DNA from: Magnetococcales bacterium | GTDB lineage: Bacteria; Pseudomonadota; Magnetococcia; Magnetococcales; JADFWU01 | Direction: 5' to 3' | NCBI GenBank assembly: GCA_015234045.1 | Contig: JADFWU010000004.1 | Span: 50,601-114,600 of the forward strand | Length of the DNA stretch: 64,000 nucleotides | Shown: piece after piece, positions 5,411 through 59,862 of the stretch | How the letters are laid out: each line of letters starts with the position of its first letter | How positions within the stretch are numbered: position 1 is the stretch's first letter | The notes under the pieces: generated by a model | Seen by the model: the letters and a program-made list of their open reading frames with translations, nothing else | The model's database searches: none | What the model was told of the DNA's origin: nothing | Made by a program: the position numbers and the translations under genes

Positions 5411-5477
5411 AGAGCCTCTCAATGGTCCAGATCCATCCGGGTTTCATGCCTGTAGGCAGTTACCATTGAAAGGCTCT
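5411..5477 (-). terminator. Long-loop hairpin, probable minus-strand terminator
   Basis: A 16-bp stem (5411-5426 with 5462-5477) encloses a 35-base loop that holds a smaller TGCCT/AGGCA stem. The single C-A mismatch on the plus strand becomes a G-U pair in minus-strand RNA, and on that strand the stem is followed by TTTTTT. It would end transcripts arriving leftward from vapBC, which would run antisense across the nuclease gene. The long loop is unusual for an intrinsic terminator. Confidence 0.5.
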
Positions 5478-5543
5478 ACCCCAAACCGCCGGAATGTGTC
5501 AATGAAAATCAGACACTCATTCCTAAACTGAAATGTCTCTATC

Positions 5544-6002
5544 GTGAAACAGATATTTTTTACTATACTGATAACGCTACTATTTTCCGTTAGCGTAATC
5601 GCGTCACCGGACAAAACCCGTTTTGATGATCTGCAAGGTGTCCTCTATCAAAGCACTCATGATGGTGACACGATTCGCTTTAACATTCCCAACACACACC
5701 CATTATTTGGTCACAATATTCCAATTCGCCTACGTGGCATTGATACTCCAGAGATCAATTCATCCTGCCCATCTGAACGACAACATGCCATTGCAGCCCG
5801 TCAGCATGTTCATACTCTTTTGCACAATGCACACACAATCACTCTGAAAAGGGTTGGACGTGGGAAATATTTTCGGATTCTGGGTGATGTCGTTTTTGAT
5901 GGCGTGGACCTTGGCCAGCATCTACTACAGAATGGGTGGGCCGTTTCTTATGATGGCGATCAGAAGAAATCTGTTTGGTGTGACTCTATAGTTAATGAAT
6001 AG
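5544..6002 (+). CDS. Secreted thermonuclease-family (SNase-like) nuclease
   Basis: A 152-residue nuclease with an N-terminal signal peptide of about 20 residues ending VSVIAS, so it acts in the periplasm or outside. The SNase fold motifs are all present: DGDT at 40-43 (calcium ligand), IRLRGIDTPE at 61-70 with the catalytic-type Arg62, Asp67 and Glu70, and RGKYFRILGDV at about 106-116 with Arg111 matching the second catalytic arginine. Cys75 and Cys145 could pair. It starts at GTG with a weak ribosome site, and no better in-frame start keeps the signal peptide. It is likely to degrade DNA and RNA for nutrients or scavenging. No neighbour is cotranscribed. Confidence 0.88.
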   Translation: MKQIFFTILITLLFSVSVIASPDKTRFDDLQGVLYQSTHDGDTIRFNIPNTHPLFGHNIPIRLRGIDTPEINSSCPSERQHAIAARQHVHTLLHNAHTITLKRVGRGKYFRILGDVVFDGVDLGQHLLQNGWAVSYDGDQKKSVWCDSIVNE

Positions 6003-6019
6003 AAATCAAGCGCAACATT

Positions 6020-6406
6020 TCACCAAAGGCGATTGACCGTATATTGATCAAATAGCTTCTCAATACTGATCAAGGTAAGATTTTCTACTATGGACTGCGT
6101 AATCAACATCCGATCAAAAGGGTCTCTATGCGCTCCAGAAAGCAATCCGGCACGTTGGGCATGAATGAGAGAAATAGGCAGGCTTGAAAATCTTTGTGTG
6201 GCGAGATGGTGAGGCAAATTCTCTGCTATTTCTTGAGCATGAGGCAATTTTCCAATTCGGAATTTGGTGGCAATTTCCCAAGCTGATGCTGAACTGACAA
6301 AGACCTCATTCCTCTCATTTGCAATAGCGTTTTTTGCCCGTTCAGATAATTGTTCATTTCCATAAAACCACCAAAGCAGTGCATGCGTATCAAGCAATAA
6401 GCGCAT
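6020..6406 (-). CDS. vapC: PIN-domain toxin, VapC type
   Basis: A 128-residue PIN-domain ribonuclease toxin. The acidic metal-binding residues are visible: Asp6 in LLLDTHALLW, Glu44 in SAWEIATK, and Asp95/Asp98 in HRDPFDRML. The DTHALLWW and RDPFDR patterns belong to the VapC subgroup that pairs with Phd/YefM-like antitoxins. The gene starts at ATG 6406 with GGAG at a good distance, three bases after the antitoxin stop. The expected action is cleavage of tRNA or rRNA when the antitoxin is degraded. The target cannot be predicted from sequence. Confidence 0.92.
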   Translation of the reverse strand: MRLLLDTHALLWWFYGNEQLSERAKNAIANERNEVFVSSASAWEIATKFRIGKLPHAQEIAENLPHHLATQRFSSLPISLIHAQRAGLLSGAHRDPFDRMLITQSIVENLTLISIEKLFDQYTVNRLW

Positions 6407-6409
6407 CCC

Positions 6410-6646
6410 TCACTCTCCTTCCCACGCCGCTAACTCTTCTTCCGGCAGTGGATCAAAAAAGCGCTCATCTACAGAACCCGTATGTTTCAATGTGCCAAAT
6501 GCACGCCCTTCAGGAAGCGGTGTAATAGGAACCAATTTAACAAGCGGATTTTTTCCACGAGCAATAATCACCTCTTCGCCCGTGAGTGCTTGATTGATAA
6601 TTCTTGAGAGATGTGTTTTTGCCGCATGAATAGTGTATTGACTCAT
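6410..6646 (-). CDS. vapB: Phd/YefM-family antitoxin
   Basis: A 78-residue antitoxin. The N-terminal half matches the Phd/YefM fold (MSQYTIHAAKTHLSRIINQA, then GEEVIIARGKNPLVKLVP), which binds DNA as a dimer. The acidic C-terminal tail (about 55-78, rich in Glu and Pro) is the usual toxin-neutralising segment. It is the first gene of the pair, with AGGTGG upstream of its ATG. Autoregulation is likely through the repeated palindrome at 6661-6683 just upstream. Confidence 0.9.
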   Translation of the reverse strand: MSQYTIHAAKTHLSRIINQALTGEEVIIARGKNPLVKLVPITPLPEGRAFGTLKHTGSVDERFFDPLPEEELAAWEGE

Positions 6647-6658
6647 CAGACCACCTAT

Positions 6659-6685
6659 TAGACTTAGTCCACTAAACTTAGTCTA
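6659..6685. promoter_or_regulatory. Candidate operator of the vapBC operon
   Basis: Two copies of a near-palindromic 9-mer, GACTTAGTC at 6661-6669 and AACTTAGTC at 6675-6683, are spaced 14 bases apart and framed by TAGAC...GTCTA. They lie 12 bases upstream of the antitoxin start. Phd-type antitoxins bind such short tandem palindromes to repress their own promoter. The site is seen directly; the binding is inferred. Confidence 0.6.
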
Positions 6686-6945
6686 TTACTATTTCGCTTT
6701 TATTTCCATACTATTCTCTTATCTCTCGAATTTATCACTCGATCAAATACATCTATAAAATGAAAACCAGCCAGAAAATGGATTGAATTGGTGCATCTAT
6801 GGCACTATCGTCCTCTTTTTTGTATACTGACAGGTGGTTTTTAGACCGATTTTGAGTGTAAATACTTGACCTGACAGATCAGATTATCATTATATTTTAA
6901 TATTCACGGTACCCACCTTAACCAGTAGCAAAAGGCATATCCAAC

Positions 6946-7800
6946 ATGGCCAACTCCCAATGGGTTATTGATGTTGATGAGAACGACTTTAATCAAGCCG
7001 TTATCCAGCAATCTCTTTCCACGCCGGTTCTTGTGGATATTTGGGCACCCTGGTGTGGTCCCTGTAAGACACTTGGTCCGATTTTGGAGCAGTTGGCGGA
7101 AGAGATGCAGGGTCGGTTTATTCTGGCTAAAGTCAATGCCGATGATAACCAACAGTTGTGTCAACAGATGCAGGTTCAAGGTATTCCAGCCTGTAAACTG
7201 GTCTTCAATGGCGAAATTGTTGATGAATTTACCGGTGCATTGCCAAAGAATCAGATCATCGAGTTTCTGGATAAGAATATTCCCAACGAAGTCGCCAATC
7301 TCATTGAACAGGGCAAAATCCTGGAACAAAATGGCGATCCACAAGGCGCGTTCAACCACTATCACGCCGCTTTGGAAGTCGAACCCAACAATACTGACGC
7401 ACTTGTTGGACAAGCCCGTATTTTTATCGCCCATGATCAAAAAAATGAAGCACAGGAACGGCTTGAGATGATCAGTGCCAATGATCAGGATAATCCTGAA
7501 GTACGCGCACTAATCGCCCAAATGGAATTCTCTGGAAACACCGACACTTCAGACCTTGAAGCCCGTATCAAAAAGAATCCAGACGATTTAGCAGCTAGAA
7601 TGGAACTGGGTCGCGCTCTGATTGGTCAGAACCAGCATGAAGCAGGCATCGATCAGTTTCTTGAAGTGGTCAAACGTGATCGCTCTTTCGAAGATGACGC
7701 AGGTCGCAAAGCGGTATTGCAGACCTTTGACATGTTGGGACCAACTCACCCTATGGTGCCCAAATTTCGAAGCAAACTCTCCTCGGTTCTGTTCTCATAA
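6946..7800 (+). CDS. cnoX: CnoX/YbbN-type thioredoxin-TPR co-chaperone
   Basis: A 284-residue cytoplasmic protein with an N-terminal thioredoxin fold (about 5-110) and a C-terminal tetratricopeptide part (about 115-284). The redox motif is a full WCGPCK with Cys37 and Cys40, and the cis-proline loop is GIP at 79-81. E. coli CnoX has lost the active CxxC pair, so this protein is of the redox-active type. CnoX binds unfolded proteins under oxidative stress and hands them to GroEL or DnaK. Cys72 and Cys83 are two extra cysteines that could also be redox-active. A possible promoter with TTGACC at 6866 lies upstream. The gene is followed 66 bases later by a large unknown gene in the same direction. 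Confidence 0.9.
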   Translation: MANSQWVIDVDENDFNQAVIQQSLSTPVLVDIWAPWCGPCKTLGPILEQLAEEMQGRFILAKVNADDNQQLCQQMQVQGIPACKLVFNGEIVDEFTGALPKNQIIEFLDKNIPNEVANLIEQGKILEQNGDPQGAFNHYHAALEVEPNNTDALVGQARIFIAHDQKNEAQERLEMISANDQDNPEVRALIAQMEFSGNTDTSDLEARIKKNPDDLAARMELGRALIGQNQHEAGIDQFLEVVKRDRSFEDDAGRKAVLQTFDMLGPTHPMVPKFRSKLSSVLFS

Positions 7801-7866
7801 CGTCCAAAAATTAACTTAATAATACGGTCCCTATCTTGGCCCCCTACTATTACGGATCACTATTCC

Positions 7867-9069
7867 ATGGCTAAATCTGCTCGTCGCATCGTCACCCCTC
7901 ATCGAAAAATTCCTCTGACTGTTCCAGAAGGCATGACACCGGTTGAATTTTTCAATAGTGTTGCCAATCTGAAAAACTTGGCTGAAGAGAACGGTCTGCT
8001 GCGCTCGCCTGAAGATTTTCTGCTCTACCGAAAAGCCATCGGCCACAGTGTGGAGTTTGATACGTCCATTATTTTGGATACATCGAAAAAAGTCATGGAC
8101 CCGTTGGGCCGCCCAGTACGTCGTGATCAACTGGACAATCAGCAAAAAAATGTCTGGAGCCGGATGAGCGAGATTATTTTCTCCTATATGGTAGAAAAAT
8201 ATCCAGACCCTGAAAAACATGTGATTCTATGTGGTGAAGCCAGTTTAGATCCAACCTGGCCACTGAGCAAACCAGGTGTACCAAGTATCCGTATGATTCA
8301 CAATCACTTCATCACATTCAATATGGATGATTTGAGAAACGCCGAACTGGCCGATCCCAACGACCCCAACCTCACTGATAGTGGCCACAATGGTCTCTTT
8401 TCTGATCAGCTCAGTCCGGTTTATCAAAAGTTCATGGAAGTGCTTGATCTGAAAATTCTACGGCCTATTCCCACTGACAAAGCACAACTCGGGCTCACCG
8501 GTTATCCTGAAGGTCTGCCCAGTTGGGAAGTTGTCGGAGGCGCTGATATGTTGAAAAATCCGCGCTTCTGGCATGAATATGATCTGGTTTTGGAAGGATT
8601 TTTGGATTTCTACCGCACCTTTTTCACCCAGGTTTCTACCCGTGGTGCGCCAGTGCCCGAGAATGCTTACTACCCGGATCAGGTGGAAAATGTCCTGCTG
8701 TTCAGCAACCATTTTCACCGCGCTGCTAAACTGATTCGTCAAGAGATTTTGCAAGATCCACAATTTGCTAATAAAATTCGTTGGCGTCCGGCCTATAAGC
8801 AACTCATGTTCCGAGATGAAAATGGTCGTCTTATTGTCACCATCAGTCAAAATTCAGTAGGTAACGCCATTACCGAACTGCTCGGCATCGTTGTGAAACG
8901 TGTCACTGATGAAGAGGCCTATGGCAAGGCAGAACCGGCCCTACTTAAAAAACTGTTGGAAGTGCGTGACCGCCTCGTTGACGCAGATCTTGGTGATCCT
9001 GTTTCAACACCATGCTGGCCAAAGGGTCAGTTTTTAGCGGAGAAATGTACACGCATGAAGAAAGGATAA
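7867..9069 (+). CDS. Conserved-looking protein of unknown function downstream of cnoX
   Basis: A 400-residue soluble protein with no signal peptide or membrane segment. I do not recognise the family. It has a basic N-terminus (KSARRIVTPHRK), a segment MIHNHFITFNMDD around residues 141-153 whose H-x-H pattern loosely recalls HIT-type nucleotidyl transferases, several conserved-looking aromatic and Pro-rich stretches (PEGLPSWEVVGGADM), and a C-terminal cysteine pair in STPCWPKGQFLAEKC. The ATG start is immediate after TTCC, with only a weak ribosome site. It follows cnoX by 66 bases on the same strand, so cotranscription is plausible. A metal or nucleotide-binding role is possible but unproven. 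Confidence 0.75.
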   Translation: MAKSARRIVTPHRKIPLTVPEGMTPVEFFNSVANLKNLAEENGLLRSPEDFLLYRKAIGHSVEFDTSIILDTSKKVMDPLGRPVRRDQLDNQQKNVWSRMSEIIFSYMVEKYPDPEKHVILCGEASLDPTWPLSKPGVPSIRMIHNHFITFNMDDLRNAELADPNDPNLTDSGHNGLFSDQLSPVYQKFMEVLDLKILRPIPTDKAQLGLTGYPEGLPSWEVVGGADMLKNPRFWHEYDLVLEGFLDFYRTFFTQVSTRGAPVPENAYYPDQVENVLLFSNHFHRAAKLIRQEILQDPQFANKIRWRPAYKQLMFRDENGRLIVTISQNSVGNAITELLGIVVKRVTDEEAYGKAEPALLKKLLEVRDRLVDADLGDPVSTPCWPKGQFLAEKCTRMKKG

Positions 9070-9095
9070 TGGTTAAGCAATAGCCTGGAAAGCGT

Positions 9096-9172
9096 CCACG
9101 GGTCGCTATGTGCGATCCCGTGGCACGTCCTTCCCACAAGGAGATGAATTGTCCGGTCATGCTCAATTCATC
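9096..9172. repeat. Two adjacent hairpins between convergent genes
   Basis: The first hairpin pairs CCACGGG and CCCGTGG (about 9096-9124). The second is a perfect 9-bp inverted repeat, GATGAATTG at 9143-9151 with CAATTCATC at 9164-9172, followed on the plus strand by TTTCC. They sit between the convergent genes ending at 9069 and 9277 and may serve as bidirectional terminators. The rest of the gap to 9276 is GC-rich and could be structured, but matches no RNA family I can name. Confidence 0.5.
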
Positions 9173-9276
9173 TTTCCATCGCTTACAGTCTCTCAAACAC
9201 TGTCCCGCAAAGGCGAAACCGGTGCGGCAACACGTTGCTCAGAAACCAAGCGAAACGGAAGCCCTCGGTACTAAGA

Positions 9277-10461
9277 CTATATGCAAACCGTAGACCGACC
9301 TGCCGCTTTGGCCCGATAAAGCGCATCATCTGCACTCTTAAGCCACTCATCTACTGAAAGCCCCGGCTGCCAACAGGCCAAACCAATGCTTACACCTAAC
9401 TTATCGGCTCCTGGCGCTTGAATGTTGAGCGCTTTTACAACTTTGCAGAGCCGCTTCATGAGCAAAAAGCCCATATCTTCAACAGTGTTGGGCAAAATCA
9501 GTGCAAATTCATCTCCACCGGTTCTGGCCAACAAATCTGACCCACGGATCATTTTCAATAACGCTTTTGATACCGCTTTCAAGGCATCATCACCATCCGC
9601 GTGACCGAGCCGATCATTGATGGCTTTAAAGTGATCCAGGTCCAGATACGCCAATGCCAAAGGATGACCATAGCGCTGTGCATTGGCAATTTCCTGATTC
9701 AAACGCTCATCAAAAACCCGACGATTGACCAAGCCGGTCAATGTGTCCCGTCGTGCCTGATCGTACAACTCTTCATAAGTCAACGCCCGCTCAATGGGAC
9801 CATGAAGCTCTTCGGACATCTCAGCCACAAGATCATCCAGATCAGAACTTCTATTGCTGGGCGCTCCACGCCGAATCAACAATAGACGATCCTCATCATG
9901 ACTGAGCTGCGTCACACGATACCAAAATCCATCATGACCTTTATGATCCAGCGCACCCTCTTCACCCACTTCCGGCGTGTGGTCAAGAATGTACTCCGCT
10001 GCATCTATCAGGCGTTGGCGGTGTGGTCCGTGACAGGAACAGGCAATGTATTGCCGATTGCGCGAAAAGTGGCGATAAGCCACCAACTCGTGATCCAAAT
10101 GCGGACGCAACCAAGTTGAAAACGTCTCCAACATTGATGCCAGATCCAGTTTTTCGCCCAGCTGACGGTGCAGGTGATAGCGCCGTTCCAATTGGTTATT
10201 ACTGTTTCTGACCCGATCCAGCTCTTTGACCTTTGGCATCAACCAAAGTGAAAATGACTCGATCATGGAAGCCAAATCCGGCTTCTCTCCCAATTGCATA
10301 TTCAGATCGTACATACGATTGAGCTGATCGGCACGATTTTGATAGTGACTCAACGCCTCTCCCAGAGTCGGTCCTGACTCCGGCCAAATCAGATTGGCTA
10401 TCGGTGTCCGGTCTAGTGGCGGTGTGCCCGATGTTTTTTGATGATTAACAACAATGCCCAT
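9277..10461 (-). CDS. Diguanylate cyclase (GGDEF) with duplicated N-terminal motif
   Basis: A 394-residue cytoplasmic enzyme that makes cyclic di-GMP from two GTP. The C-terminal GGDEF domain (about 233-394) has the intact motif GGDEF at 315-319, DLDHFKAIND for metal and substrate, and an inhibitory I-site RGSD at 306-309 exactly five residues before the active site, so product inhibition is expected. The N-terminal part has an internal repeat: residues 52-80 (QLGEKPDLASMIESFSLWL) and 96-124 (QLGEKLDLASMLETFSTWL) are copies of one helical motif. A sensor-like region (about 125-205) with Cys-x-Cys-His follows. The signal sensed is unknown. No membrane segment is visible. Confidence 0.92.
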   Translation of the reverse strand: MGIVVNHQKTSGTPPLDRTPIANLIWPESGPTLGEALSHYQNRADQLNRMYDLNMQLGEKPDLASMIESFSLWLMPKVKELDRVRNSNNQLERRYHLHRQLGEKLDLASMLETFSTWLRPHLDHELVAYRHFSRNRQYIACSCHGPHRQRLIDAAEYILDHTPEVGEEGALDHKGHDGFWYRVTQLSHDEDRLLLIRRGAPSNRSSDLDDLVAEMSEELHGPIERALTYEELYDQARRDTLTGLVNRRVFDERLNQEIANAQRYGHPLALAYLDLDHFKAINDRLGHADGDDALKAVSKALLKMIRGSDLLARTGGDEFALILPNTVEDMGFLLMKRLCKVVKALNIQAPGADKLGVSIGLACWQPGLSVDEWLKSADDALYRAKAAGRSTVCI

Positions 10462-10759
10462 GGCAGTATCGACATCCCATTTTCAATAAATGATCCAATG
10501 GTGACCATGACATTTCATGGCAGCCTGGTGGATGGAAACTTCCTTCCCCCCATGAGATCTTTGTATTGAATAACGCGATTTTTGTGCCAATAGTCAGGAT
10601 CGTGACACTGTTTGAGATTATGGTTAAATACCGCTTTCATTTCCGCTTTGGAACAGTCTGAAACCACATATTAATTACTGTTTGCTAATATCTATCACAT
10701 GCTGTTTATAGCGGCATTAACAGAAGTGTCACTATTTTGTTCACAGAAAAAATCAGAAA

Positions 10760-10795
10760 AAAATGCCCGTCCATAGCGCGTTGGACGGGCATTTT
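10760..10795. terminator. Strong bidirectional terminator
   Basis: A perfect 14-bp stem, AAAATGCCCGTCCA at 10760-10773 with its complement at 10782-10795, encloses an 8-base loop and has A and T flanks on both sides. It lies 13 bases beyond the stop of the long helicase gene, which it should terminate on the minus strand. The rest of 10462-10808 shows no gene. Confidence 0.88.
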
Positions 10796-10808
10796 CTGCA
10801 CACTTTGC

Positions 10809-13800
10809 TCACTCCACTTGAATACCCCAGTACATCCCTTTATCTAAAAAATGCACTTCAAGACGCTTCCTGTCATTGCCAAAAGAGACCATCATGGACC
10901 AATCTTCAATCACAAAATGGTGCTTATCCACCTTATTTACCACATGATCCAGTGAATCAACCCGCTTTTCCCGCCACTTCACACGCGCCAAACCGCCATT
11001 TTCACGCTCCTCTATGAGAAGATGTTTCAAACGCGCGCGCCATGAAAAAGTATACCCCTCCATGTAGCGGCTAAAATCACGTGAAACAACGGAAGACGAT
11101 CTCCATTGCTGTGCGGTTTCTGATTCTGTACTTAACGCCTGGTCACTTTGAGTGATATCGTCTGAATCCGCTGGTTCTGGTGTTATCTCTGGTTCTGGTG
11201 TTACCTCTGGTTCTTTAATTTCTTCTCGTTTTTGCACACTATTTTCATGATCAACCGTTCCACTATCCGCTATTGGTGCTTTTTCTATCTGTTTGATCGT
11301 TGCCTGATTATGTTCTGTATCACGCCCATTAATAGCAGAGCTTGCCTTATTGTTTGGTTGATCTGTAATTTCCCTCTTTTTCAGTGCATCACTATCTGGC
11401 CGTTCGATCCCTTGTGATACAACATCGTCAAGACTATTTAATCCGGAAATACCGCTGGCTCCCGCCAGTGCCAAAGAAGAAGACGCTGGCCCTATTACGT
11501 CTGTCTCTTTACCGGACTTTGGAACCAGATTGAGAATGTTAAAATCATTGGATCTCATGGATGCAACCATCTGATCCTTTGTTGATTTTAACACATCATT
11601 ATTCTGCTTTTTCTGTACAGCGTCCTGATCATGTACAGTTTGTGTGATTGATGGCAACGTGAAGCCTTTGAAACAGAGCGACAGATCATCCAAGGTCAGT
11701 TTTGGCAACTCGGGATAGTCTGGAATAATATCCAGCGATTTAATTTTCAGCTGCTTCTTTTTCTCCTCCAGCCGTCTAATCGAATCAACAACCGGACGTT
11801 CACGCTCTTCATCATGGCGAATTTGGCGATCTTTTACCCGTAACCAACGAAGAGCCAACGCTTTTTGATCCGCTGGATTGAGTGTATCGTCCTCAATAAA
11901 CGACTCACACAATTGCAAGGCATCACTAAACCGACCGGCCCGCTCAACAGCGGCTACCATTTCCAAAGCAGAGACACAATTCGGTAGTTTCCTGACCCCT
12001 TGTTTCCAGCGCTTATTAAGATAGGCACGCACACTTTTTTGGTCATCCATGCGCGCACTGACCAAACTATCCGAACGAGCCAATATTTTTATCAAGACAA
12101 CCCCAACCCCTTTTCTTACCGCTTTTAGGAGTTGCTCTAGCGGCCTTTTAATTTTACGTCTCTTCGGCCCAATCATTTTGGCTGGTTCGCCACGAGCTAA
12201 AACAAAGGCCCTGTCAAATTGACCAGCCGTGACTATCAATTGGATTGCAACAGCCCAATAGAGGGGTTGAAGCGACTGCGGAAGCTTTGGAAGAATTTTC
12301 TTGAGTGATGCTAAAGTATTGGGATTATTTCTCTGAAAAACCACTTCAAGTGAAGATTGTAACTCATTATTTTCACAAAGACTTACAACAACTTGGTCAA
12401 TAATTGAACGGGTCAAACCAGCATGATCAGGCTGTTCAAGTACCTGTAGAGTGATCTCTTCATGGCAATTTAGGCGTTGCAAATAGAAAAGATTCTCAGG
12501 AAACGGTGCAACCTTTGCCTTGGCAAAATCATAGAAACGATTGCTACCGCTTAGATTTTCATGCTCAAAAATCCGAATGGATTCACGGTAATCTCCAGCA
12601 AGACAACTCACTCTGCCCAAATCCATTGCTGAAATCGTAATCCCAGTGTTGGCGATCTTCGACAACGTACTTTGAAGTGATGTCCATTCTGCTGTTTTTA
12701 CGCCCTCTTCAGCCGGGTTCTGATGGCTGATATCGAGTTTTGATAGCAAACGATTAACCAACCGATTGGCATTCTCTTCATGAATACGCATATCGGTAAG
12801 TTTGAGTTTTTCCACCCAAGATTCGGATTTTTTCGAAATTTCACTCAACAAGGCAACAGCACTGAGCGGATCACCAGCCTGCTGTATCTCAACCTGTTTA
12901 AGGATTCGATTGATGACATGTTTTGCAACCATTTTACTGGAGTCACTCAACCAATCCACACGATGCCATCCCTCTTTTCCTGCCAGCCATAAAACGGGCA
13001 ATGCATGAGAATAGTCTTCGATTTTTACAAACCGATTTCCCGATTCTAAATATTTTCCCTCAAACAACTCCGCCCATGCCAACACAGAATCAGCTTGATT
13101 TGAATCACCCATATTCCGATATAGCGCCGCCGCCTGACGCAGTTGATACGGATCACGCCGGGTCATACCGTCCATTTTTCTTTCGTCAGCCTGATCCCTG
13201 TAATTCTCCTCACGACATTGTGATATATCGCTCTCTTCTGAACCTTCCACCAAAGAGGTAATACATTTGCGCCATGCAATCATAGCCTCATTAGCATTGT
13301 CACTATAAAGACCTGGAATAGTATTGGGCTGTTGAAAGGGCAACCAGAAATCCATCCCCTCTTCAGGCTCAATGATCATCAAGCGCTTTTTGGCGCGTGT
13401 CAGCGCCACATAGAGACGATTAATAAAATATTCCGCTTCCAGTGCTGCCCCTTCCCGACTGGGAAACGGTTCCAATCCATCAGAAATTTTTCGTTTTAAC
13501 ACCTCTGGTGCATTGGCTCCAAACCCATACAACGCCACCCGGTTGAACTCCAACCCTTTGGCCCGTACTGCGCTATATAGATTAACCGGAACGCCTTCTA
13601 TCACATCAATAACCGATGCCAACCATCGATCAGTATCTCGAAAATGTTTCTCTTCGTTATATCCACAAGGTGCGAGAAAAACGATATCTTTTTCTTGACG
13701 AAGACGCGCAACCAACCCGCTGTCACCCGCATGAAACAGCAACGGAGACGGGCTATTCTCCTCTACACTCCACGGTGTTTGAGATTTAATATTTTTTATG

Positions 13801-15824
13801 TTGAACAAGACACTTCGGATCAACTGAAGCAGATTGGACAGACGGACAATATTCGGTTCGGATCGATAGTTGTAAGAGAGTTCTTCATAATTAATGTCCC
13901 GCTTTCCTGCACCATCTCCACTGTAAGGCAGAATGATTTTCTCGGTAAAAATCGCCTTAATTGCTTCCCATCGAAACCCTGTTGGATTCAGAGTCTGAAA
14001 CTCATCACCTGCGAAAACAAACGGTACCGCGCCAATCTCATCATAATGAACGGTTCTATGTGAAAAGAGCGAAAGCCGGAAAATCAGTTCCAATTCATTT
14101 CGAGTAAAATCCTGCGCTTCATCGCAAAATATAGCTGATAACAGTGGCTTCTCTTCATTATCCAAATCGTCTATATGGTCAATAACTGCCCGGACCAAGT
14201 CTTGATCATCCCAAAGACGGCCATCCAACCCTTCACGCCGATACCAATTCATCCAGATCTTTTGATAAATCCGATCAAATTGTTCAAAACAGATAATTTT
14301 TTCTGCTTTAGGCAGCCCTTGATACTCAATTGGCGTAATGTCACTGTCATCTTCAAGATTGGCTCCTTTGATCACCGAGCGAATCACATGCCAGGACTCT
14401 TCTGGCGTAAGTCCTATAGAGGATTGATCGAATGAAAATTTTTCATTCCAAAGTTTTCTGAACCGAACCCAATCAACATAGTTATTTGGACTAAATTGCC
14501 GTTGAATAGCAGTCGGCAAAAGGGATTTAAGATAGTCGTAGAATTTTTTGAAAGACCCGTCAATCAGTCGTATCTCTTCCCGAGTGAGAGATTTTTTATC
14601 CCGAGCCATGAGTAGATCTGAACGTTTTTCAATCAGATTACTGACAGTATTCTTTGCCACATCCAACAGGTTGGAACTACAGGTAAAATAGACCGGTGCC
14701 GGAACGGATTTCAGAATCTCTCGGTTTTGCAGATAGTGAATCAAATAATCAATGAACATGTATTGCAGAATAGTGGACTTGCCACTACCGGCCCGACCAT
14801 TGATAAATAATGGAAAAGCCCGTTTACGACCACGTGACTCGCCCACACTGCGTAACAGGTCAGACTCTTCTGGAGAAAGGGCTAGATTACTTTCCCGATC
14901 ATTCTGAATAGCCAACCAATAGCTTCTGTCCGTTAACAATATGGCTGGATATGACCGACGCGCATTTTTTGAAATTGTCTCATGATCAATAGGTTGATCA
15001 CCAAGGAGAGGCTGATATCTTTTAGTCAGCTTCTCTTTCTCAATATCGCTATCAACCTCAATTACACCCGCTAAAAACAGATTGGCTTCTGATTTCTGAT
15101 AGCGATACAAAATCATCAGATTGGTATCAGCAATAGAGTACCAACCAGACTCAGCTTGCGTAGCATCATCAACTAAAGACATAATAGCATCAGGAATAAA
15201 TGCTAAATGCGTATGAATAACCTCTTGTTGTACATGTTCGATCCAATCCACACTTTCAAATACTGTATCACCATCCCAATTGGTATCTGAATGAGCAATG
15301 TTAAAAAGATACTCACTTTCCGCTTCACTGGGCCTCGGCAGCGCGTCTACTGGCTGATCGGAAATACGCTGGAGAATCTCATCTTCCATTTGCGCTTGAA
15401 AATTGTGAAAAAAATTCTCCAGCAATTCATCTCTAGCGCCAGAGTTTAACCGACAGAACAGTTCATACTCATTGTCACCACGAATCATTATCCTAAGCAA
15501 AATCAATACTTCTTGATTATGAACCGTGGTCAATTGACCAATAAGTCTCAACTGCCTGGTTTTGGCAAATTTCTTCTTAACCCAGAAACTCCCGGCAAAT
15601 GGTGTCATACCATAAATGCGCTGCACCGCTTCAACACGCTCCTTGATCTCGAAAAGCGCACTTTCACAGTTATGCCTTTTTGCATCCGATTTACAATCAG
15701 GCGAAATACTCACATAGAGTGTCAAGGTAGAATCTCCTGAATTATCAAATTGATTGTCAACGGAGGATGGGCGTATTACACACTCCGAGATTGATATTTT
15801 CCAATCACAAATAATGGATACCAT
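10809..15824 (-). CDS. Giant UvrD-like superfamily 1 helicase with helical repeats
   Basis: A 1671-residue protein. Residues about 1-330 are an unrecognised N-terminal region. The SF1 helicase core has Walker A GRAGSGKS at 343-350, motif II DEAQD at 568-572, motif III FAGDEFQTLNPTGFRW at about 604-619, a YNYRS motif IV, AVRAKGLEF as motif V and LYVALTRAKK as motif VI, so it should hydrolyse ATP on nucleic acid. A long helical, TPR-like region (about 890-1330) follows, then a low-complexity Glu/Pro linker (KEPEVTPEPEITPEPAD) and a compact C-terminal domain (about 1600-1671). The arrangement recalls TRANK1-like helicase-repeat proteins. The ATG start lacks a ribosome site; a TTG at 15725 with CAGGAG eight bases upstream is a credible alternative. 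A dispersed repeat fragment lies directly upstream. Confidence 0.88.
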   Translation of the reverse strand: MVSIICDWKISISECVIRPSSVDNQFDNSGDSTLTLYVSISPDCKSDAKRHNCESALFEIKERVEAVQRIYGMTPFAGSFWVKKKFAKTRQLRLIGQLTTVHNQEVLILLRIMIRGDNEYELFCRLNSGARDELLENFFHNFQAQMEDEILQRISDQPVDALPRPSEAESEYLFNIAHSDTNWDGDTVFESVDWIEHVQQEVIHTHLAFIPDAIMSLVDDATQAESGWYSIADTNLMILYRYQKSEANLFLAGVIEVDSDIEKEKLTKRYQPLLGDQPIDHETISKNARRSYPAILLTDRSYWLAIQNDRESNLALSPEESDLLRSVGESRGRKRAFPLFINGRAGSGKSTILQYMFIDYLIHYLQNREILKSVPAPVYFTCSSNLLDVAKNTVSNLIEKRSDLLMARDKKSLTREEIRLIDGSFKKFYDYLKSLLPTAIQRQFSPNNYVDWVRFRKLWNEKFSFDQSSIGLTPEESWHVIRSVIKGANLEDDSDITPIEYQGLPKAEKIICFEQFDRIYQKIWMNWYRREGLDGRLWDDQDLVRAVIDHIDDLDNEEKPLLSAIFCDEAQDFTRNELELIFRLSLFSHRTVHYDEIGAVPFVFAGDEFQTLNPTGFRWEAIKAIFTEKIILPYSGDGAGKRDINYEELSYNYRSEPNIVRLSNLLQLIRSVLFNIKNIKSQTPWSVEENSPSPLLFHAGDSGLVARLRQEKDIVFLAPCGYNEEKHFRDTDRWLASVIDVIEGVPVNLYSAVRAKGLEFNRVALYGFGANAPEVLKRKISDGLEPFPSREGAALEAEYFINRLYVALTRAKKRLMIIEPEEGMDFWLPFQQPNTIPGLYSDNANEAMIAWRKCITSLVEGSEESDISQCREENYRDQADERKMDGMTRRDPYQLRQAAALYRNMGDSNQADSVLAWAELFEGKYLESGNRFVKIEDYSHALPVLWLAGKEGWHRVDWLSDSSKMVAKHVINRILKQVEIQQAGDPLSAVALLSEISKKSESWVEKLKLTDMRIHEENANRLVNRLLSKLDISHQNPAEEGVKTAEWTSLQSTLSKIANTGITISAMDLGRVSCLAGDYRESIRIFEHENLSGSNRFYDFAKAKVAPFPENLFYLQRLNCHEEITLQVLEQPDHAGLTRSIIDQVVVSLCENNELQSSLEVVFQRNNPNTLASLKKILPKLPQSLQPLYWAVAIQLIVTAGQFDRAFVLARGEPAKMIGPKRRKIKRPLEQLLKAVRKGVGVVLIKILARSDSLVSARMDDQKSVRAYLNKRWKQGVRKLPNCVSALEMVAAVERAGRFSDALQLCESFIEDDTLNPADQKALALRWLRVKDRQIRHDEERERPVVDSIRRLEEKKKQLKIKSLDIIPDYPELPKLTLDDLSLCFKGFTLPSITQTVHDQDAVQKKQNNDVLKSTKDQMVASMRSNDFNILNLVPKSGKETDVIGPASSSLALAGASGISGLNSLDDVVSQGIERPDSDALKKREITDQPNNKASSAINGRDTEHNQATIKQIEKAPIADSGTVDHENSVQKREEIKEPEVTPEPEITPEPADSDDITQSDQALSTESETAQQWRSSSVVSRDFSRYMEGYTFSWRARLKHLLIEERENGGLARVKWREKRVDSLDHVVNKVDKHHFVIEDWSMMVSFGNDRKRLEVHFLDKGMYWGIQVE

Positions 15825-31636: not shown

Positions 31637-31871
31637 TGGTATAAGTAATCCATCAGGGGTTCAGGGAGAGTTCTGTTCCTCCCTGGAACAGATTATCTTT
31701 ACCAGGGCACATCAGACAGCACTTATGGACAACAGAACCCCTGTACACGGATGTTTGAGTCCAGATCCAGACAACATTCTTTGAATTTGGGTTCGCTAAA
31801 AGGCAACACACTTGCCACTTCCACATCAGCCCGTCAGATTATGGATAATCTGACGGGCTGTTTTTATTTTT
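31637..31871 (+). ncRNA. Candidate structured small RNA with its own promoter and terminator
   Basis: An extended -10 element, TGGTATAAG at 31637-31645, predicts a start near 31652. From there, CAGGGGTTC at 31654-31662 pairs perfectly with GAACCCCTG at 31735-31743. Inside it, CAGGGAG/CTCCCTG (31662-31668 with 31679-31685) and TCTGTTCC/GGAACAGA (31672-31679 with 31685-31692) are mutually exclusive hairpins. The transcript would end at a perfect 16-bp terminator (31827-31860) with a T-rich tail. No open frame of note lies within it, and no plus-strand gene follows for 8 kb. It could also be a processed 3' end of the Pit operon. It does not match 6S, SRP or tmRNA as I know them. Confidence 0.55.
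31827..31871 (+). terminator. Strong intrinsic terminator
   Basis: A perfect 16-bp stem (31827-31842 with 31845-31860), 2-base gap closing as a short loop, then TTTTTATTTTT. The T tract is on the plus strand, so it serves the candidate RNA above or the Pit transcript, and not the minus-strand Rpn gene which ends just beyond it. Confidence 0.9.
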
Positions 31872-32847
31872 CTCCAATAAAAATTTCTTCCAATGACTGA
31901 GCATCCAATATGCGATCACTCCACAACTCAAGAGTCGATTGATCTGCCTCTTTAACCTGAGACACTACCCACCCAGGTAACGTTCCAAATCGATGCTGAA
32001 GTTGGCGAAGCAGTATGGTCACTTCACCTTCCTGACGGCCTTCCTGACGGCCTTCCTGACGGCCTTCCTGACGGCCTTCCTGACGGCCTTTTGCAATCAT
32101 TTCCCTGGCAAACTGAGAGGCATACTGCTCTGCTTCACCTGGGAAAGCTTCTTCTGTAAATACTCGAATACTGCTCATATCAAAATCCTCACAAGCCTGC
32201 ACCAAATACAGTAAAGCACGTTGAGCAAGCTCTGTGTCACTATGAAGTGCTTGACCAATTGAGGCCACGACATCCGCCGAAATCCTCGATTGAAACACAC
32301 ATTTCAGGGCCAGAAATCCACCACGTAGCCGATCATCTCTGGATAATGATGTATCATCTATGCGCCCCAAATCCACCATGGAATAAACGAAATCGAGAAG
32401 ATAGGGACGCCATGACGACTCAGCATCAACCAGCGCTGAAAACATTGGCGGAACAGACCATGCCTCTCTACCATGATAAACTAATAGAGGTATAATAGGA
32501 GAGAAACGTTCACCACTACCCAATTCCCGCTTCATCTGTTCCATTATGCGTACCATATAGCGTAGCATTTGAAAGGCTACCCATTCATCTGGATAGCTTT
32601 TATGCTCTACCAGTACATACACATAAGCCGTTGAATCGGCAATCGTTTTTACCTGAAACAATCGATCTGTAAGGTGTTGACGAAACTCTCCATCGATAAA
32701 TGTTCCATCCACCATCAAGGGTGGCTCTGGTGACAGTAGTTCCGCTACCTCTTTTGGCAATCGCTCATGCAAAAGAGTTCCCGCAGTCTCAGGATTGGAT
32801 AACAATGTTTTGAGAAAACGGTCATGAGGATGAACGATATCAACCAT
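31864..32847 (-). CDS. Rpn-family putative nuclease/transposase-like protein
   Basis: A 327-residue member of the Rpn (recombination-promoting nuclease, PD-(D/E)XK) group. The N-terminal HPHDRFLKTLLSNP (6-19) is the family signature; the nuclease core is marked by a conserved acidic position and VLVEHKS near residue 80. The C-terminal third contains a GRQE motif repeated about five times, encoded by a 12-base tandem repeat. Rpn proteins cleave DNA and promote RecA-independent recombination, and the repeated linker is a known feature of the group. It is a single gene; ATG follows normally. It may be mobile or have a role in phage defence; that is inference. Confidence 0.88.
   Translation of the reverse strand: MVDIVHPHDRFLKTLLSNPETAGTLLHERLPKEVAELLSPEPPLMVDGTFIDGEFRQHLTDRLFQVKTIADSTAYVYVLVEHKSYPDEWVAFQMLRYMVRIMEQMKRELGSGERFSPIIPLLVYHGREAWSVPPMFSALVDAESSWRPYLLDFVYSMVDLGRIDDTSLSRDDRLRGGFLALKCVFQSRISADVVASIGQALHSDTELAQRALLYLVQACEDFDMSSIRVFTEEAFPGEAEQYASQFAREMIAKGRQEGRQEGRQEGRQEGRQEGEVTILLRQLQHRFGTLPGWVVSQVKEADQSTLELWSDRILDAQSLEEIFIGEK
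32027..32090. repeat. 12-base tandem repeat inside the Rpn gene
   Basis: The unit GGCCTTCCTGAC is repeated about 5.3 times without change over 64 bases and encodes Gly-Arg-Gln-Glu repeats on the minus strand. Because the unit is a multiple of three, gain or loss of copies keeps the frame and changes the linker length between the nuclease core and the C-terminal segment. Confidence 0.95.
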
Positions 32848-32883: not shown

Positions 32884-33915
<1,032 letters not shown>

Positions 33916-55249: not shown

Positions 55250-55615
55250 ATGACTATCAAAACAACCGCTACTGCTTTGTTGATGACCGCGTTTCTCGCT
55301 ACTGCGCCTGCTCACAGCACCGAGAGCCAAACCAACTATCAAGACTCTGTCAATCAAATCGTTGTTCTGCATCTTGATGCATTGAAACAGCTAACCAAGC
55401 ACACCAGCCCCTACTCTGATAATGTCGTTCGACACGCGATTGCTCTTGAGCAAACCGCTGGACTCTTGGATGATCAGGCGTTAGAAGGTACAGTACTCGG
55501 CAGCCGTAAACAGGTTAAAGATCTTCTCAAAGCAGCGCGTGACTGGATGAAACATGGCAATCGTGCCAAACTGATCACAACTTTGAATGCGTTGGATTTC
55601 AACAGCAATCAGTAA
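55250..55615 (+). CDS. Cytochrome c'-like paralogue lacking the haem motif
   Basis: A 121-residue periplasmic protein with a signal peptide of about 24 residues (TALLMTAFLATAPAHS). The mature part aligns with the cytochrome c' encoded next: SPYSDNVVRHAIALEQTAGLL corresponds to SSYSDNVVRHAAAIRQTSGLL. It lacks the C-terminal CxxCH and the preceding loop, ending at LNALDFNSNQ. It has no Cys in the mature part, so it cannot bind haem covalently. GGAG precedes the ATG. It lies 32 bases upstream of its paralogue and they form an operon. The role could be as a partner subunit or ligand-binding protein; this is inference. Confidence 0.8.
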   Translation: MTIKTTATALLMTAFLATAPAHSTESQTNYQDSVNQIVVLHLDALKQLTKHTSPYSDNVVRHAIALEQTAGLLDDQALEGTVLGSRKQVKDLLKAARDWMKHGNRAKLITTLNALDFNSNQ

Positions 55616-55647
55616 CAGCACTCTATTTTGCATTAGGAGACTCAGTT

Positions 55648-56109
55648 ATGAAACATGGTCTGAAAATTTTAGCGGCAGTGGGCATTCTTGCATTCAGCAC
55701 CGTATCAGTAGCCCACTCTGAAACGAATGGCGAGCTTGATTATCTGCGCTCGGTTATGAACATTTTCCGTCTGCATATTCACGCCATTGAACAGACGATT
55801 GAACCCGGTTCGAGCTACTCTGACAACGTTGTTCGCCATGCTGCCGCCATTCGTCAGACATCTGGGCTTTTGGACCATGCCTACCCAGGCAAGGATTCAA
55901 AGGTCAATAGTAGAGGCCATGAATGGCCGTGGGAAGATGAAGAAGCCTTTCGGGAACGTGTTTCAGTGAGTCAAGATTCAGCTAAAGAGTTGGTTTCAGC
56001 GGCTAAAAAGTGGAATGCCAATCACGACACACCTAATTTGCTCGATGCCATTGAAGGTGTCAAACAAGGGTGCCGCAATTGTCATGGTGATCTTCGCAAC
56101 TGGCCTTGA
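55648..56109 (+). CDS. Cytochrome c' (class II c-type cytochrome)
   Basis: A 153-residue periplasmic four-helix-bundle haem protein. The signal peptide ends about residue 25 (VSVAHSE). The haem-binding motif CRNCH is Cys142, Cys145 and His146 near the C-terminus, where class II cytochromes carry it. The helix-one motif YLRSVMNIFRLHIHAIEQ and the conserved SSYSDNVVRHAAAIRQTSGLL match the partner gene. AGGAG lies before the ATG. Cytochromes c' bind NO, CO or other small ligands and may protect against nitrosative stress. It is second in a two-gene operon and ends at a strong terminator. Confidence 0.88.
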   Translation: MKHGLKILAAVGILAFSTVSVAHSETNGELDYLRSVMNIFRLHIHAIEQTIEPGSSYSDNVVRHAAAIRQTSGLLDHAYPGKDSKVNSRGHEWPWEDEEAFRERVSVSQDSAKELVSAAKKWNANHDTPNLLDAIEGVKQGCRNCHGDLRNWP

Positions 56110-56274: not shown

Positions 56275-56874
56275 ATGATGCCCTTACGCACCATTGCCCT
56301 GTTAGGCCGAGAGCCTGGTTTTTTAGTTCTTAAGGATACCCTGATCGACAATCCCAATATTGATCTAAAAGGTGTCTTCTCTCACGCACGCCTGCCCAAA
56401 TCTGAAGGCAATGGCCCCAGAGGCGATTTTTCCCAATTTCAAACACTCTGTGATAGTAAAGACATCCCACTGTTTCCGCTGGACTTTCCTGAAGCAAAAA
56501 CGCTGGAAAACCATCTACCCAGGGCAGAATTTGATCTTCTAGTGGTGCTTTCCTGGCGTTTTCTGGTTTCCAACGAGGCATTAAATCGTTTTCGGCTCGG
56601 AGGTCTCAATCTACATCGTGGTGCCCTGCCCCAATACAAGGGTGCGGAACCTGTGAAACGCGCGTTGGAAAATGGAGATAAACAGGTTGCCATCACTGCT
56701 CACCGCATGACAGAAATTATCGACGATGGTTTACCGCTGGCCATGGTTTGGTTGGATGTTGCGCCAACACCAAACAACACCACAACGACACAATATGCCG
56801 AACGCATTAAAAAACAGCTCTATCCACTCTACGCACCATTGGCCAGAACAGCCATTGAGGCAATCAGCGCATGA
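56275..56874 (+). CDS. Formyltransferase-fold protein (formyl_trans_N only)
   Basis: A 199-residue cytoplasmic enzyme of the formyltransferase fold, without the C-terminal OB domain of methionyl-tRNA formyltransferase. The catalytic Asn-His-Asp set is present: LNLHRGALPQYKG holds Asn and His, and TEIIDDGLPLA holds the Asp. The N-terminal TIALLGREPGFLVLKDTL is the start of the fold. It could transfer a formyl group from 10-formyltetrahydrofolate to an amino sugar or nucleotide. The ATG pair at 56275/56278 follows the terminator, whereas a TTG at 56233 lies in it. Its TGA overlaps the next gene ATG, so it is the first of a three-gene coupled operon with a HAD and a Nudix protein. Confidence 0.82.
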   Translation: MMPLRTIALLGREPGFLVLKDTLIDNPNIDLKGVFSHARLPKSEGNGPRGDFSQFQTLCDSKDIPLFPLDFPEAKTLENHLPRAEFDLLVVLSWRFLVSNEALNRFRLGGLNLHRGALPQYKGAEPVKRALENGDKQVAITAHRMTEIIDDGLPLAMVWLDVAPTPNNTTTTQYAERIKKQLYPLYAPLARTAIEAISA

Positions 56875-57506
56875 GTTGCCAAAAAGGTCTTTTTCTGGAC
56901 CTGGATGGCACACTGGCAGACAGCTTGGATGTGATGTATCGCGTCTATTGTGATGTATTGGATGAATATCAGTGTCAGGGCAGTGTAGAAGAGTTTGACA
57001 TGCTGAACGGCCCACCGCTCTCTGTTGTGGCTCAACGTCTTATTGAAATTCATCACCTGACCATTTCAGAACAGGATCTACTGACACGCTATTGGCAATT
57101 GATTTTCCGCCAATATGAGCATGTTCAACCAAATCCGGGCGCTGTTACCTTGTTGAAGTCTGTTCACAAACAGGGCTATAAAATCGGCGTTGTTTCCTCT
57201 TCTTCGAAACACTTAATCCAATCCTGGCTTCACACCCATAACTTGCTCAACTGGATTGACTGCACGGTTGGTGGTGATAGTGTGTCACCTGGAAAACCCA
57301 ATCCCGCCCCCTATCTCCATGCGTTGAAAATAACCGGTTGTGATGCTGTACTGAGTTGGGCTGTAGAAGATTCCCGTTCCGGTGCTCAATCGGCCCTATC
57401 TGCGGGACTACAAACAGCGATCTTAGCGGCTGATCCCGCTCAACTCTGGCCGGATGGTGTATGTTTTATCACTCAGTTGGATGATCTTCTGAAGGTGTTA
57501 TCGTGA
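56871..57506 (+). CDS. HAD-superfamily phosphatase
   Basis: A 211-residue phosphatase of the HAD family, subfamily IA-like. Motif I FLDLDGTLADS has nucleophile Asp10 and Asp12; motif II is GVVSSSSKH; motif III and the conserved Lys occur in GKPNPAPY; motif IV is AVEDSRSGAQSAL. A cap domain follows motif I. It is expected to remove a phosphate from a small metabolite, for example a sugar or nucleotide monophosphate. It overlaps the formyltransferase and the Nudix gene by four bases each (ATGA and GTGA), so the three are made together. Substrate is unknown; operon context suggests a step in one pathway. Confidence 0.88.
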   Translation: MSCQKGLFLDLDGTLADSLDVMYRVYCDVLDEYQCQGSVEEFDMLNGPPLSVVAQRLIEIHHLTISEQDLLTRYWQLIFRQYEHVQPNPGAVTLLKSVHKQGYKIGVVSSSSKHLIQSWLHTHNLLNWIDCTVGGDSVSPGKPNPAPYLHALKITGCDAVLSWAVEDSRSGAQSALSAGLQTAILAADPAQLWPDGVCFITQLDDLLKVLS

Positions 57507-58222
57507 GCTTTCCACCTGATTTTTTCAGTCAAGAACCACTGATTTTATTTAATAAATTAACAATTGAACAGATTCCATTCCAATCAATCTTGCCACAAGA
57601 AGATATAGAGAAAGCCGATCAACTTTGGCAATCTGCTTTACAAACCAATCCTTCTTTGTTTGACGGTAAGCTACTCCACATCACGGATATCAAACGAACA
57701 AAACCGGATCAAATACACATTCAGACAATGCCGATTCCATATCGATATTTTTATGCAGATCGGCATGATAATGGACCAAACCTATCCATTTTCTCACTGG
57801 GTGTAACTGGCCTAACTCGTTTTCAGGATAAAATTCTGCTAGGCCAACGTTCGGGCCATGTCACCCAATATCCAGGCTATTGGGAATTGGCACCCAGCGG
57901 AACCATTGAGCCTTCGAAGAATGGTTCACCAGACCCTGTGAAGCAGTGTGTTAAGGAACTACAAGAGGAGTGCGGTTATTCATCAGCAACGGTTAACCAT
58001 GTTGAACCGGTATGCTTATTCTGGGACAACGCCCAGTCTGGAACCGATATTGGCTGTTTACTCACCCTACGAAGCACAAAAACAGATGCCCCTTTCTCGG
58101 ATGAGTATGGTTCATTTGTCTGGAAAACTGGCTCCGACATTTTAGCCCGCAAACATCCAAAAAAGGAAAAAATCATTCCCTCCAATCATCACTTCCTGAA
58201 TCGCTTTTTATCCTTTATTTAA
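57503..58222 (+). CDS. Nudix-family hydrolase
   Basis: A 239-residue protein with an N-terminal extension (about 1-90) and a Nudix fold from about 95. The Nudix box is recognisable as WELAPSGTIEP...KELQEECGYSS; the catalytic KELQEECG at 151-158 has Lys in place of the usual Arg, and the loop to the preceding Gly is longer than the consensus, so the enzyme may be atypical. It would hydrolyse a nucleoside diphosphate linked to another group. It starts at GTG within a GTGA that overlaps the HAD stop. It is third in the operon and ends at a remnant gene. Substrate unknown. Confidence 0.82.
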   Translation: MSFPPDFFSQEPLILFNKLTIEQIPFQSILPQEDIEKADQLWQSALQTNPSLFDGKLLHITDIKRTKPDQIHIQTMPIPYRYFYADRHDNGPNLSIFSLGVTGLTRFQDKILLGQRSGHVTQYPGYWELAPSGTIEPSKNGSPDPVKQCVKELQEECGYSSATVNHVEPVCLFWDNAQSGTDIGCLLTLRSTKTDAPFSDEYGSFVWKTGSDILARKHPKKEKIIPSNHHFLNRFLSFI

Positions 58223-58563: not shown

Positions 58564-59862
58564 GTGTCCGGTTAATAATCGAATAAGTTCAACTGGTTAT
58601 CTTGGTTGTCAGGTTGTTCAGGATGAAGGCCACTTCCAAGCAATTGATCAATCAATGATTTTTCAAAAACGGTGACGCTCAAAATCTGCAAAATTGTGTA
58701 GAGACTGGCGTCTATTTTGAGCTCTTTTTTGATGATGGCTACGAGCACATAAACTGAGATCGCTGTCCAAATCTGAGTTTTGACGGCGTTCTCTGATGTC
58801 CCATAAAATTTCTTGATTCTCAGGTGCTGCTTAATCCATTTGAAAAATAGCTCAACCTGCCATCTGGAACGATAAAGCGCTGCAATTGTCAGCGCAGATA
58901 GGGTGAAATCATTGGTGAGAAACACCAAGATATTCCCTTTTTCGACGTCATTGAATTTGACGCGACGCAAATGGGCTGGGTAAGCTTTTTGAGAGCGGTT
59001 TCCAGTCAGAACGATGGTTTGATCACACCGAAGTCCGCTATTCTTATCAATGGATCTGGAATAGAGTCTTCTGAAGCGGAGGTTTGATTTGGCCCGTATG
59101 ACAAAGAAGGAATCACTTTCATTCAGTGTGAACAGACGGGCAAAATCCAGGTATCCGCGGTCCATGACATAGAAAGATCCGGGCTCTGGTATGAGTTGAT
59201 CTAGAATGTTGACATCGTGAAGTTTCCCGTCACTGATGTGGATGAATGATGGAATATTTCCTCGTAAATCCAACAGAGTATGGAGCTTGATGGCAGACTT
59301 CGTTTTCCTGAATTTTGCCCATGGAAAAACTGAAAGGCACAGATCAATGGTGCTGGAGTCAAGCGCATACGCTGTCTGTTGGAGATTAACGCTAAATTCG
59401 TCGTCCTGGTATAGTCGCCGGGCTTTTTGAATCAAGGAGTGTGCAAAATCGGCATAAATTCTCCAATCTCGTTTCTCATTGGCATCAGCTAACGTGCTTT
59501 TCGATACCTTGCCACGAATGCCCATATGGTAGAGCTTGGACTGCTGTGAACGAAGGCAAACTTCAATATCTCTGAGACTCTCTCTGTAGGTGATTTGTGC
59601 AAAAGCCATGCAGAGGAATTGATCCAGACACGTGAACTGTTTAACGTGCCGATCACCATGATAGCGCTGGACACAACGCCGGAAAGTATGAGATGGCATG
59701 AACTCCATCACCTGAGAAAAAACGCTCTTTCCAGCGTACATAACGCGGCCTCCCATTCATCAAATTGAAGATGATGGGAGAGTGGCAGTGAGTTGAACTG
59801 GAGTTCAAGTCGCTTAAACGGCATGTTGCGTGGTTGTACAACTTATGTCCCGGACAGTAGTG
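58559..59862 (-). mobile_element. Second IS4-family insertion sequence
   Basis: CACTAGTGTCCGG at 58559-58571 and CCGGACAGTAGTG at 59850-59862 are inverted repeats matching at 12 of 13 positions. One intact transposase gene lies between. The flanks (CAGGG and GGCTA) show no clear target duplication. It shares the CACTA and GGACA core of its ends with the IS at 3213-4460, although the transposases are of different subgroups. Confidence 0.82.
58572..59741 (-). CDS. IS4-family transposase with DUF4372-type N-terminus
   Basis: A 389-residue DDE transposase. The N-terminal MYAGKSVFSQVMEFMPSHTF and RRCVQRYHGDRHVK match DUF4372, which probably binds the ends. The catalytic first Asp is in YALDSSTIDLCLS, the second in VMDRGYLDFARLF, and the Glu in YRSRWQVELFFKWIKQHLRI. 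ATG 59741 is preferred because it gives the common MYxGKxVFSQ start. The gene ends one base inside the left inverted repeat. The frame is intact, so it may be active. Confidence 0.93.
   Translation of the reverse strand: MYAGKSVFSQVMEFMPSHTFRRCVQRYHGDRHVKQFTCLDQFLCMAFAQITYRESLRDIEVCLRSQQSKLYHMGIRGKVSKSTLADANEKRDWRIYADFAHSLIQKARRLYQDDEFSVNLQQTAYALDSSTIDLCLSVFPWAKFRKTKSAIKLHTLLDLRGNIPSFIHISDGKLHDVNILDQLIPEPGSFYVMDRGYLDFARLFTLNESDSFFVIRAKSNLRFRRLYSRSIDKNSGLRCDQTIVLTGNRSQKAYPAHLRRVKFNDVEKGNILVFLTNDFTLSALTIAALYRSRWQVELFFKWIKQHLRIKKFYGTSENAVKTQIWTAISVYVLVAIIKKELKIDASLYTILQILSVTVFEKSLIDQLLGSGLHPEQPDNQDNQLNLFDY

Follow-up and report, generated by a model that had tools for sequence, protein, structure and literature searches.

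The closest described counterpart of the locus reported here is the CMP-pseudaminic acid pathway (PseB-C-H-G-I-F; the Flm enzymes of Caulobacter). PseG of this pathway releases UDP from UDP-2,4-diacetamido-2,4,6-trideoxy-altrose in one step, and in the flagellin islands of Geobacillus a formyltransferase is known in the acetyltransferase position (PMC5109656). The Caulobacter version has been rebuilt in E. coli K-12 from six genes (FlmA-B-H-D-NeuB-C) along with FlmG/FljK (PMC7591256). The genome studied here likewise has PseB, PseC and PseI over curated cut-offs, together with a CMP-sugar transferase that adjoins PseC. It differs in having no PseG match and no PseH over the cut-off, in carrying a formyltransferase (FT), a HAD phosphatase and a Nudix hydrolase instead, in the apparently SpsF/KdsB-like type of its CMP-sugar transferase, and in the scattering of its genes.

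Organization and protein families of the triplet

The window, i.e., the whole stretch of 64,000 nucleotides that was analyzed, forms the terminal part of a contig of 114.6 kb from a Magnetococcales assembly of 3.65 Mb (93% complete). The genes for FT, HAD and Nudix, called the triplet below, are three plus-strand ORFs in which FT and HAD join in ATGA, and HAD and Nudix in GTGA (Table 1). The ORF coordinates bear out the overlapping three-enzyme operon of the original prediction, whose description of the proteins is also accurate: FT is minimal, without the C-terminal domain of Fmt, and retains the Asn-His-Asp triad (Asn112, His114 and Asp150), and the Nudix box is atypical, with a long loop that puts 19 residues between the Gly and the first Glu of REUxEE, versus the usual 15, and with Lys for Arg. 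Of the two tandem small proteins encoded just upstream of the triplet, the first has a layout like that of its cytochrome c' neighbor and no Pfam match.

Table 1. Positions and gene orders in the window, elsewhere in its genome (L043), and in other genomes. Parentheses in gene orders mark fusions; MT, methyltransferase.
Locus	Feature or gene order	Position	Strand	Remarks
Window	FT, formyltransferase without Fmt C-terminal domain	56275..56874	+	199 aa; PF00551 Formyl_trans_N, E 5.8e-18
Window	HAD-IA phosphatase	56871..57506	+	211 aa; PF13419 HAD_2, E 5.6e-31
Window	Nudix hydrolase with N-terminal domain, NUDT22-like	57503..58222	+	239 aa; PF00293 NUDIX, E 7e-5
Window	IS transposase (DUF4372 + DDE_Tnp_1)	58572..59756	-	PF14294, E 7.9e-36; PF01609, E 1.3e-31; directly downstream of triplet
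Window	Two tandem small proteins	55250-56109		Second is cytochrome c' (PF01322)
Window	PseB, UDP-GlcNAc 4,6-dehydratase (inverting), first pathway enzyme	32884..33882	-	TIGR03589, 530.5 bits (cut-off 407.75); PF02719, E 7e-101
Window	Transposase gene (Transposase_31)	31864-32847		Directly beside PseB
L043	WbuX amidotransferase + HisH/HisF-like partners	8273-10810		Adjoin PseC/CMP-sugar transferase; same set in L102
L032 (Melainabacteria)	(GNAT-NeuB)-HAD-Nudix	3343-4974		Position of GNAT-NeuB fusion
L033 (Chitinophagaceae)	HAD-Nudix-PseI			Methyltransferase precedes HAD-Nudix
L045, L044 (G010 and G023)	HAD-(GNAT-NeuB) / Nudix-PseB-PseC	7378-8958 (L045), 6127-7704 (L044)		Positions of GNAT-NeuB fusions
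L046 (G009)	Nudix-HAD with PseB-PseC
L048 (G002)	PseI-HAD-Nudix
L047 (G053)	MT-HAD, (Nudix-SpsF-PseG-GNAT), then PseI	2965-6426		Position of the fusion, a single 1153 aa frame of Nudix, CMP-sugar transferase, PseG and GNAT domains
L092 (G682)	MT-HAD-Nudix inside PseB-PseC-PseG cluster
L104 (G033)	Type III CRISPR RAMP-like genes after nonulosonic-acid genes	7824-15000		By eye only

The PDB relatives of FT are Fmt, ArnA, PurN and PseJ. By E value FT is nearer to Fmt and ArnA than to PseJ (7e-13 for Fmt versus 2.4e-5 for PseJ among these PDB relatives). Identity with Fmt itself was ruled out: FT has 199 aa versus about 315 aa, and TIGR00460 matches it over the N-terminal half only, with 57.6 bits versus a cut-off of 201.5. 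With FT as query, no Fmt-like gene was found in its own genome at E 1e-3, while nearly all Fmt genes of related genomes match FT; the fmt gene of this genome may have been missed by the assembly or have diverged.

All four motifs of the HAD phosphatase superfamily are intact in HAD (DLDGT, VVSSSS, GKPNP and EDSRSG). Its best family is the beta-phosphoglucomutase/YqaB group, with TIGR02009 as the top model but below its cut-off, and the likeness to the HAD-type inorganic pyrophosphatase 3quc (E 2.6e-11) is about equal to that to beta-phosphoglucomutase. HAD is 32-43% identical to the HADs of eight other clusters (see below), and a cap stretch resembling FxxLNGPxL is common to these proteins. 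We propose that HAD may be a sugar-1-phosphate phosphatase.

Membership of the third enzyme in the Nudix superfamily is indicated by a PF00293 match over the cut-off, by metal-binding glutamates (E152, E155 and E156) that are invariant across nine homologues, and by a modeled Nudix fold with Z up to 16. The N-terminal domain and the long box loop of the Nudix proteins suggested a likeness to human NUDT22. For the model of the L033 homologue, NUDT22 occupies ranks 1-4 (Z 16.4, 15.9, 15.9 and 15.1; rmsd 2.8-3.2 over 163-171 residues), followed by other Nudix proteins at Z 14.8 and lower. For the window enzyme NUDT22 ranks only 18th in Foldseek, from a low-confidence model poorer than that of L033. 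Neither model is strong (pLDDT 52 and 58), and the N-terminal domain is poorly modeled (pLDDT under 50). A sequence-profile search for NUDT22 gave no match up to E 10. The link to NUDT22 is suggestive only. We propose that the Nudix enzyme could be a UDP-sugar diphosphatase yielding sugar-1-phosphate and UMP.

Nonulosonic acid genes in this and other genomes

PseB is encoded in the window, 22 kb from the triplet (TIGR03589 match at G000:C62:83505-84482, window 32905-33882). A second contig of the same genome (C90, locus L043) encodes PseI (484 bits) and PseC (531 bits), both over their cut-offs, along with a CMP-sugar transferase, a WbuX amidotransferase, and HisH/HisF-like genes. The earlier statement that no sugar nucleotide cluster lies next to the triplet is thus wrong for the window and the genome, and true only directly beside the triplet. 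In this genome no linkage exists between the triplet, PseB, and the PseC/PseI set; the transposases beside the triplet and PseB may, we infer, have helped to scatter the Pse genes. The CMP-sugar transferase matches KdsB-type models only and appears SpsF/KdsB-like rather than PseF; in Caulobacter, a PseF that differs from the type is known (PMC7591256). Two genomes of the same order, G005 (L102) and G002 (L103), share parts of the L043 set (WbuX 79%, radical SAM 68%, and CMP-sugar transferase 50% identical). The WbuX/HisH/HisF set suggests an amidino-modified nonulosonic acid.

No TIGR03590 (PseG) match was found in this genome at E<=1e-3. A missed PseG is less likely because the model finds the divergent PseG of Caulobacter, which shares only 22% identity with its C. 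jejuni counterpart (PMC7591256), but the absence could be a gap in a 93% complete metagenome-assembled genome. No PseH exceeded the cut-off either (best 29 bits versus 93, in a 602-aa frame); since GNAT families diverge widely, this absence is less certain than that of PseG.

The initial Nudix scan found two distant loci, L032 and L033, each with an adjoining HAD gene and NeuB/PseI next door. Nine gene sets in all, found in Pseudomonadota, Bacteroidota and Melainabacteria, combine HAD and Nudix, and almost every one lies beside nonulosonic acid genes (NeuB/PseI, PseB, PseC); the two are neighbors, or flank NeuB, beside Pse genes (Table 1). In G005 the Nudix gene is at a contig end. G010 is a single contig of 4,719,581 bases, in which PseB, PseC, GNAT-NeuB and PseF are present, PseG is absent, and Nudix and HAD flank NeuB. 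Among 395 genomes from the phylum of L033, one further cluster came to light, that of the PseG-bearing G682. The triplet itself, whose conservation the original prediction proposed to check, is not conserved: only HAD and Nudix are kept, and FT homologues are absent from the other clusters at E 1e-8, the L044 cluster having an FT of its own that is distant from that of the window. In several clusters a GNAT acetyltransferase domain, which probably carries out acetylation, stands where FT would be. Three clusters have GNAT-NeuB fusions, probably a PseH-like acetylase joined to the synthase.

Relatives of the Nudix enzyme also occur outside nonulosonic acid clusters, on Streptomyces and Kitasatospora plasmids and, alone beside other genes, in four genomes of family f32 (L065, L067, L069 and L050). 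In three of these four the gene is located between a Ppx/GppA-like gene and a gene for a translation-factor-like GTPase. None of the four Nudix-bearing f32 genomes has a PseG match, and one (G076) has no PseI match either.

Distribution of the Nudix enzyme relative to PseG

Profiles for Nudix, PseG, PseI and PseC were run on this genome and 150 relatives. Among the 35 genomes bearing PseC over its cut-off, Nudix is present in 6/7 without PseG versus 1/28 with PseG (Fisher p 2.9e-5), and within the order in 6/7 PseG-less versus 0/13 PseG-bearing genomes (p 1.8e-4). These p values are too small because the tests treat related genomes as independent, and the six Nudix-bearing PseG-less genomes (the genome of the window, G000, and G002, G005, G009, G010 and G023) represent five families of one order. 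The PseG-bearing genome with Nudix is G053. When PseG matches below 40 bits are scored as absent, p is 3e-4 for all genomes and 2e-3 for the order; when only PseG over the curated cut-off is counted, it weakens to 0.04 and 0.26, respectively. The PseG genes below the cut-off are probably real because most adjoin PseC or PseI. The one exception among PseG-less genomes, G033, has PseC and neither PseG nor Nudix; it is 78% complete and resembles G028, whose related cluster has a PseG-like gene. Genes, motifs, linkage, the absence of PseG and the complementary distribution are direct observations.

Proposed pathway, alternatives, and comparison with known systems

We favor, with moderate confidence, the reading that the triplet completes a pseudaminic-acid-type pathway in which Nudix and HAD replace PseG and FT takes the role of PseH. 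We infer all of the following reactions and substrates, formylation above all. PseB and PseC would convert UDP-GlcNAc to UDP-4-amino-4,6-dideoxy-AltNAc, and FT would formylate the 4-amine (N4), the group that PseH acetylates in other bacteria. Cleavage of the diphosphate by the NUDT22-like Nudix enzyme would then release UMP and leave the sugar-1-phosphate. Since such a product needs dephosphorylation before PseI, HAD is the natural candidate phosphatase and would strip the phosphate; the free sugar and PEP would pass to PseI and then to the CMP-sugar transferase. Nudix and HAD would together be the two-step equivalent of the one-step PseG, with one extra phosphate bond broken. Formylation of the 4-amine is the likeliest role of FT, because the genome has no PseH over the cut-off and formyltransferases replace acetyltransferases in flagellin islands; of the three roles it is the least supported.

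A distinct nonulosonic acid branch is possible and put forward tentatively, in which the NUDT22-like Nudix enzyme and HAD displace PseG and, in this genome, the product is an N-formyl sugar that WbuX/HisH/HisF may turn into a formimidoyl derivative. Such a formimidoyl product is not known to have been assigned to any gene set.

Counter-evidence to the replacement of PseG comes from G053 and G682, which carry HAD and Nudix as well as an intact-looking PseG, so that the pair is not always a PseG substitute; there it would be redundant, serve a second sugar, or have another job in the same pathway. A methyltransferase gene precedes HAD in L033, L047 and L092, in keeping with a tailoring module. 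The lone Nudix genes of the f32 genomes, the separation of the three gene groups in this incomplete assembly, the low quality of the structural models, and an FT that is not nearer to PseJ than to Fmt or ArnA count against the favored reading too. The co-occurrence with PseG and the methyltransferase, the former including the fusion of Nudix to SpsF-PseG-GNAT in G053, also favor the main competing explanation, as does the frequent house-cleaning function of Nudix enzymes: HAD and Nudix would act in nonulosonic acid synthesis without replacing PseG, by clearing or recycling dead-end UDP-sugars of PseB and PseC or by serving a parallel second sugar, and an unrecognized enzyme would fill the PseG gap. 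We consider this somewhat unlikely, as it leaves unexplained both the near-confinement of the pair to PseG-less genomes (6/7 versus 1/28) and the direct PseI-HAD-Nudix and HAD-NeuB adjacency within them.

The occurrence of HAD-Nudix with nonulosonic acid genes in eight independent sets from three phyla, one of them a fusion, makes it improbable that the triplet is simply a house-cleaning operon, with HAD a pyrophosphatase or general sugar phosphatase, Nudix acting on damaged nucleotides, and FT unrelated and merely co-transcribed. The near-equal likeness of HAD to 3quc, the lone Nudix genes of f32 genomes and Streptomyces plasmids, and the lack of linkage between the triplet and the PseC/PseI contig would agree with such an operon. 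Neu5Ac-9-phosphatase (NANP) is also a HAD phosphatase, and HAD adjoins NeuB/PseI in several clusters; a HAD of this type, with a synthase making a 9-phosphorylated sugar acid and Nudix in a side role, is nevertheless very improbable, as the 6-deoxy product of PseB leaves no C9 hydroxyl for a phosphate and the PseI of this genome exceeds the PseI cut-off.

Under the favored pathway, the original prediction, formylation of a sugar or nucleotide and trimming of phosphates toward a modified metabolite or glycan precursor, was right in direction, but the pathway it called unknown is a known one: gene neighborhoods and phyletic pattern place HAD and Nudix in pseudaminic/nonulosonic acid synthesis. 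The original prediction was to be refuted by an unconserved triplet or by homologues with a place in a characterized pathway. Half of this applies: the triplet is unconserved and the pathway characterized, but no paper was found that assigns the two enzymes to it. In the open-access literature (most subscription journals lying outside) no paper ties a Nudix hydrolase to this step; Nudix and nonulosonic, legionaminic or pseudaminic acid synthesis are mentioned together only in a dehydratase review, where the Nudix protein is another enzyme. This is weak evidence of novelty. What we propose as new is the two-step replacement of PseG, the pathway itself being known. If correct, genome surveys that use PseG as a marker miss producers of pseudaminic acid, including this group of magnetotactic cocci, and a bacterial NUDT22-like enzyme gains a biological task. 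The flagellar sheath of MO-1, a relative of this group, is made of glycoprotein (PMC7175107).

Like PseJ, ArnA and GDP-perosamine formyltransferase, FT has a Formyl_trans_N domain with Asn-His-Asp; it is near PseJ in size, and its genome carries the enzymes for a 4-amino UDP-sugar, but its match to PseJ is weaker than those to Fmt and ArnA. NUDT22, a human UDP-glucose/galactose hydrolase, heads the list of structures similar to the L033 homologue, likewise has an N-terminal domain before the Nudix domain and a lengthened Nudix box, and cleaves the same bond as proposed for the window enzyme. The latter differs in being bacterial, in adjoining a phosphatase, in having homologues in biosynthetic clusters, and in lacking a sequence-profile match. 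In tunicamycin biosynthesis, tunF, tunG and tunN encode an epimerase, a phosphatase and a diphosphatase, which release a UDP-bound sugar ahead of a step involving a C-C bond. The three genes feed the likely C-C bond-forming step of the antibiotic (PMC6105854). HAD and Nudix are likened to this system by description and not by sequence; it belongs to another pathway, that of an antibiotic, in which the genes are dispensable.
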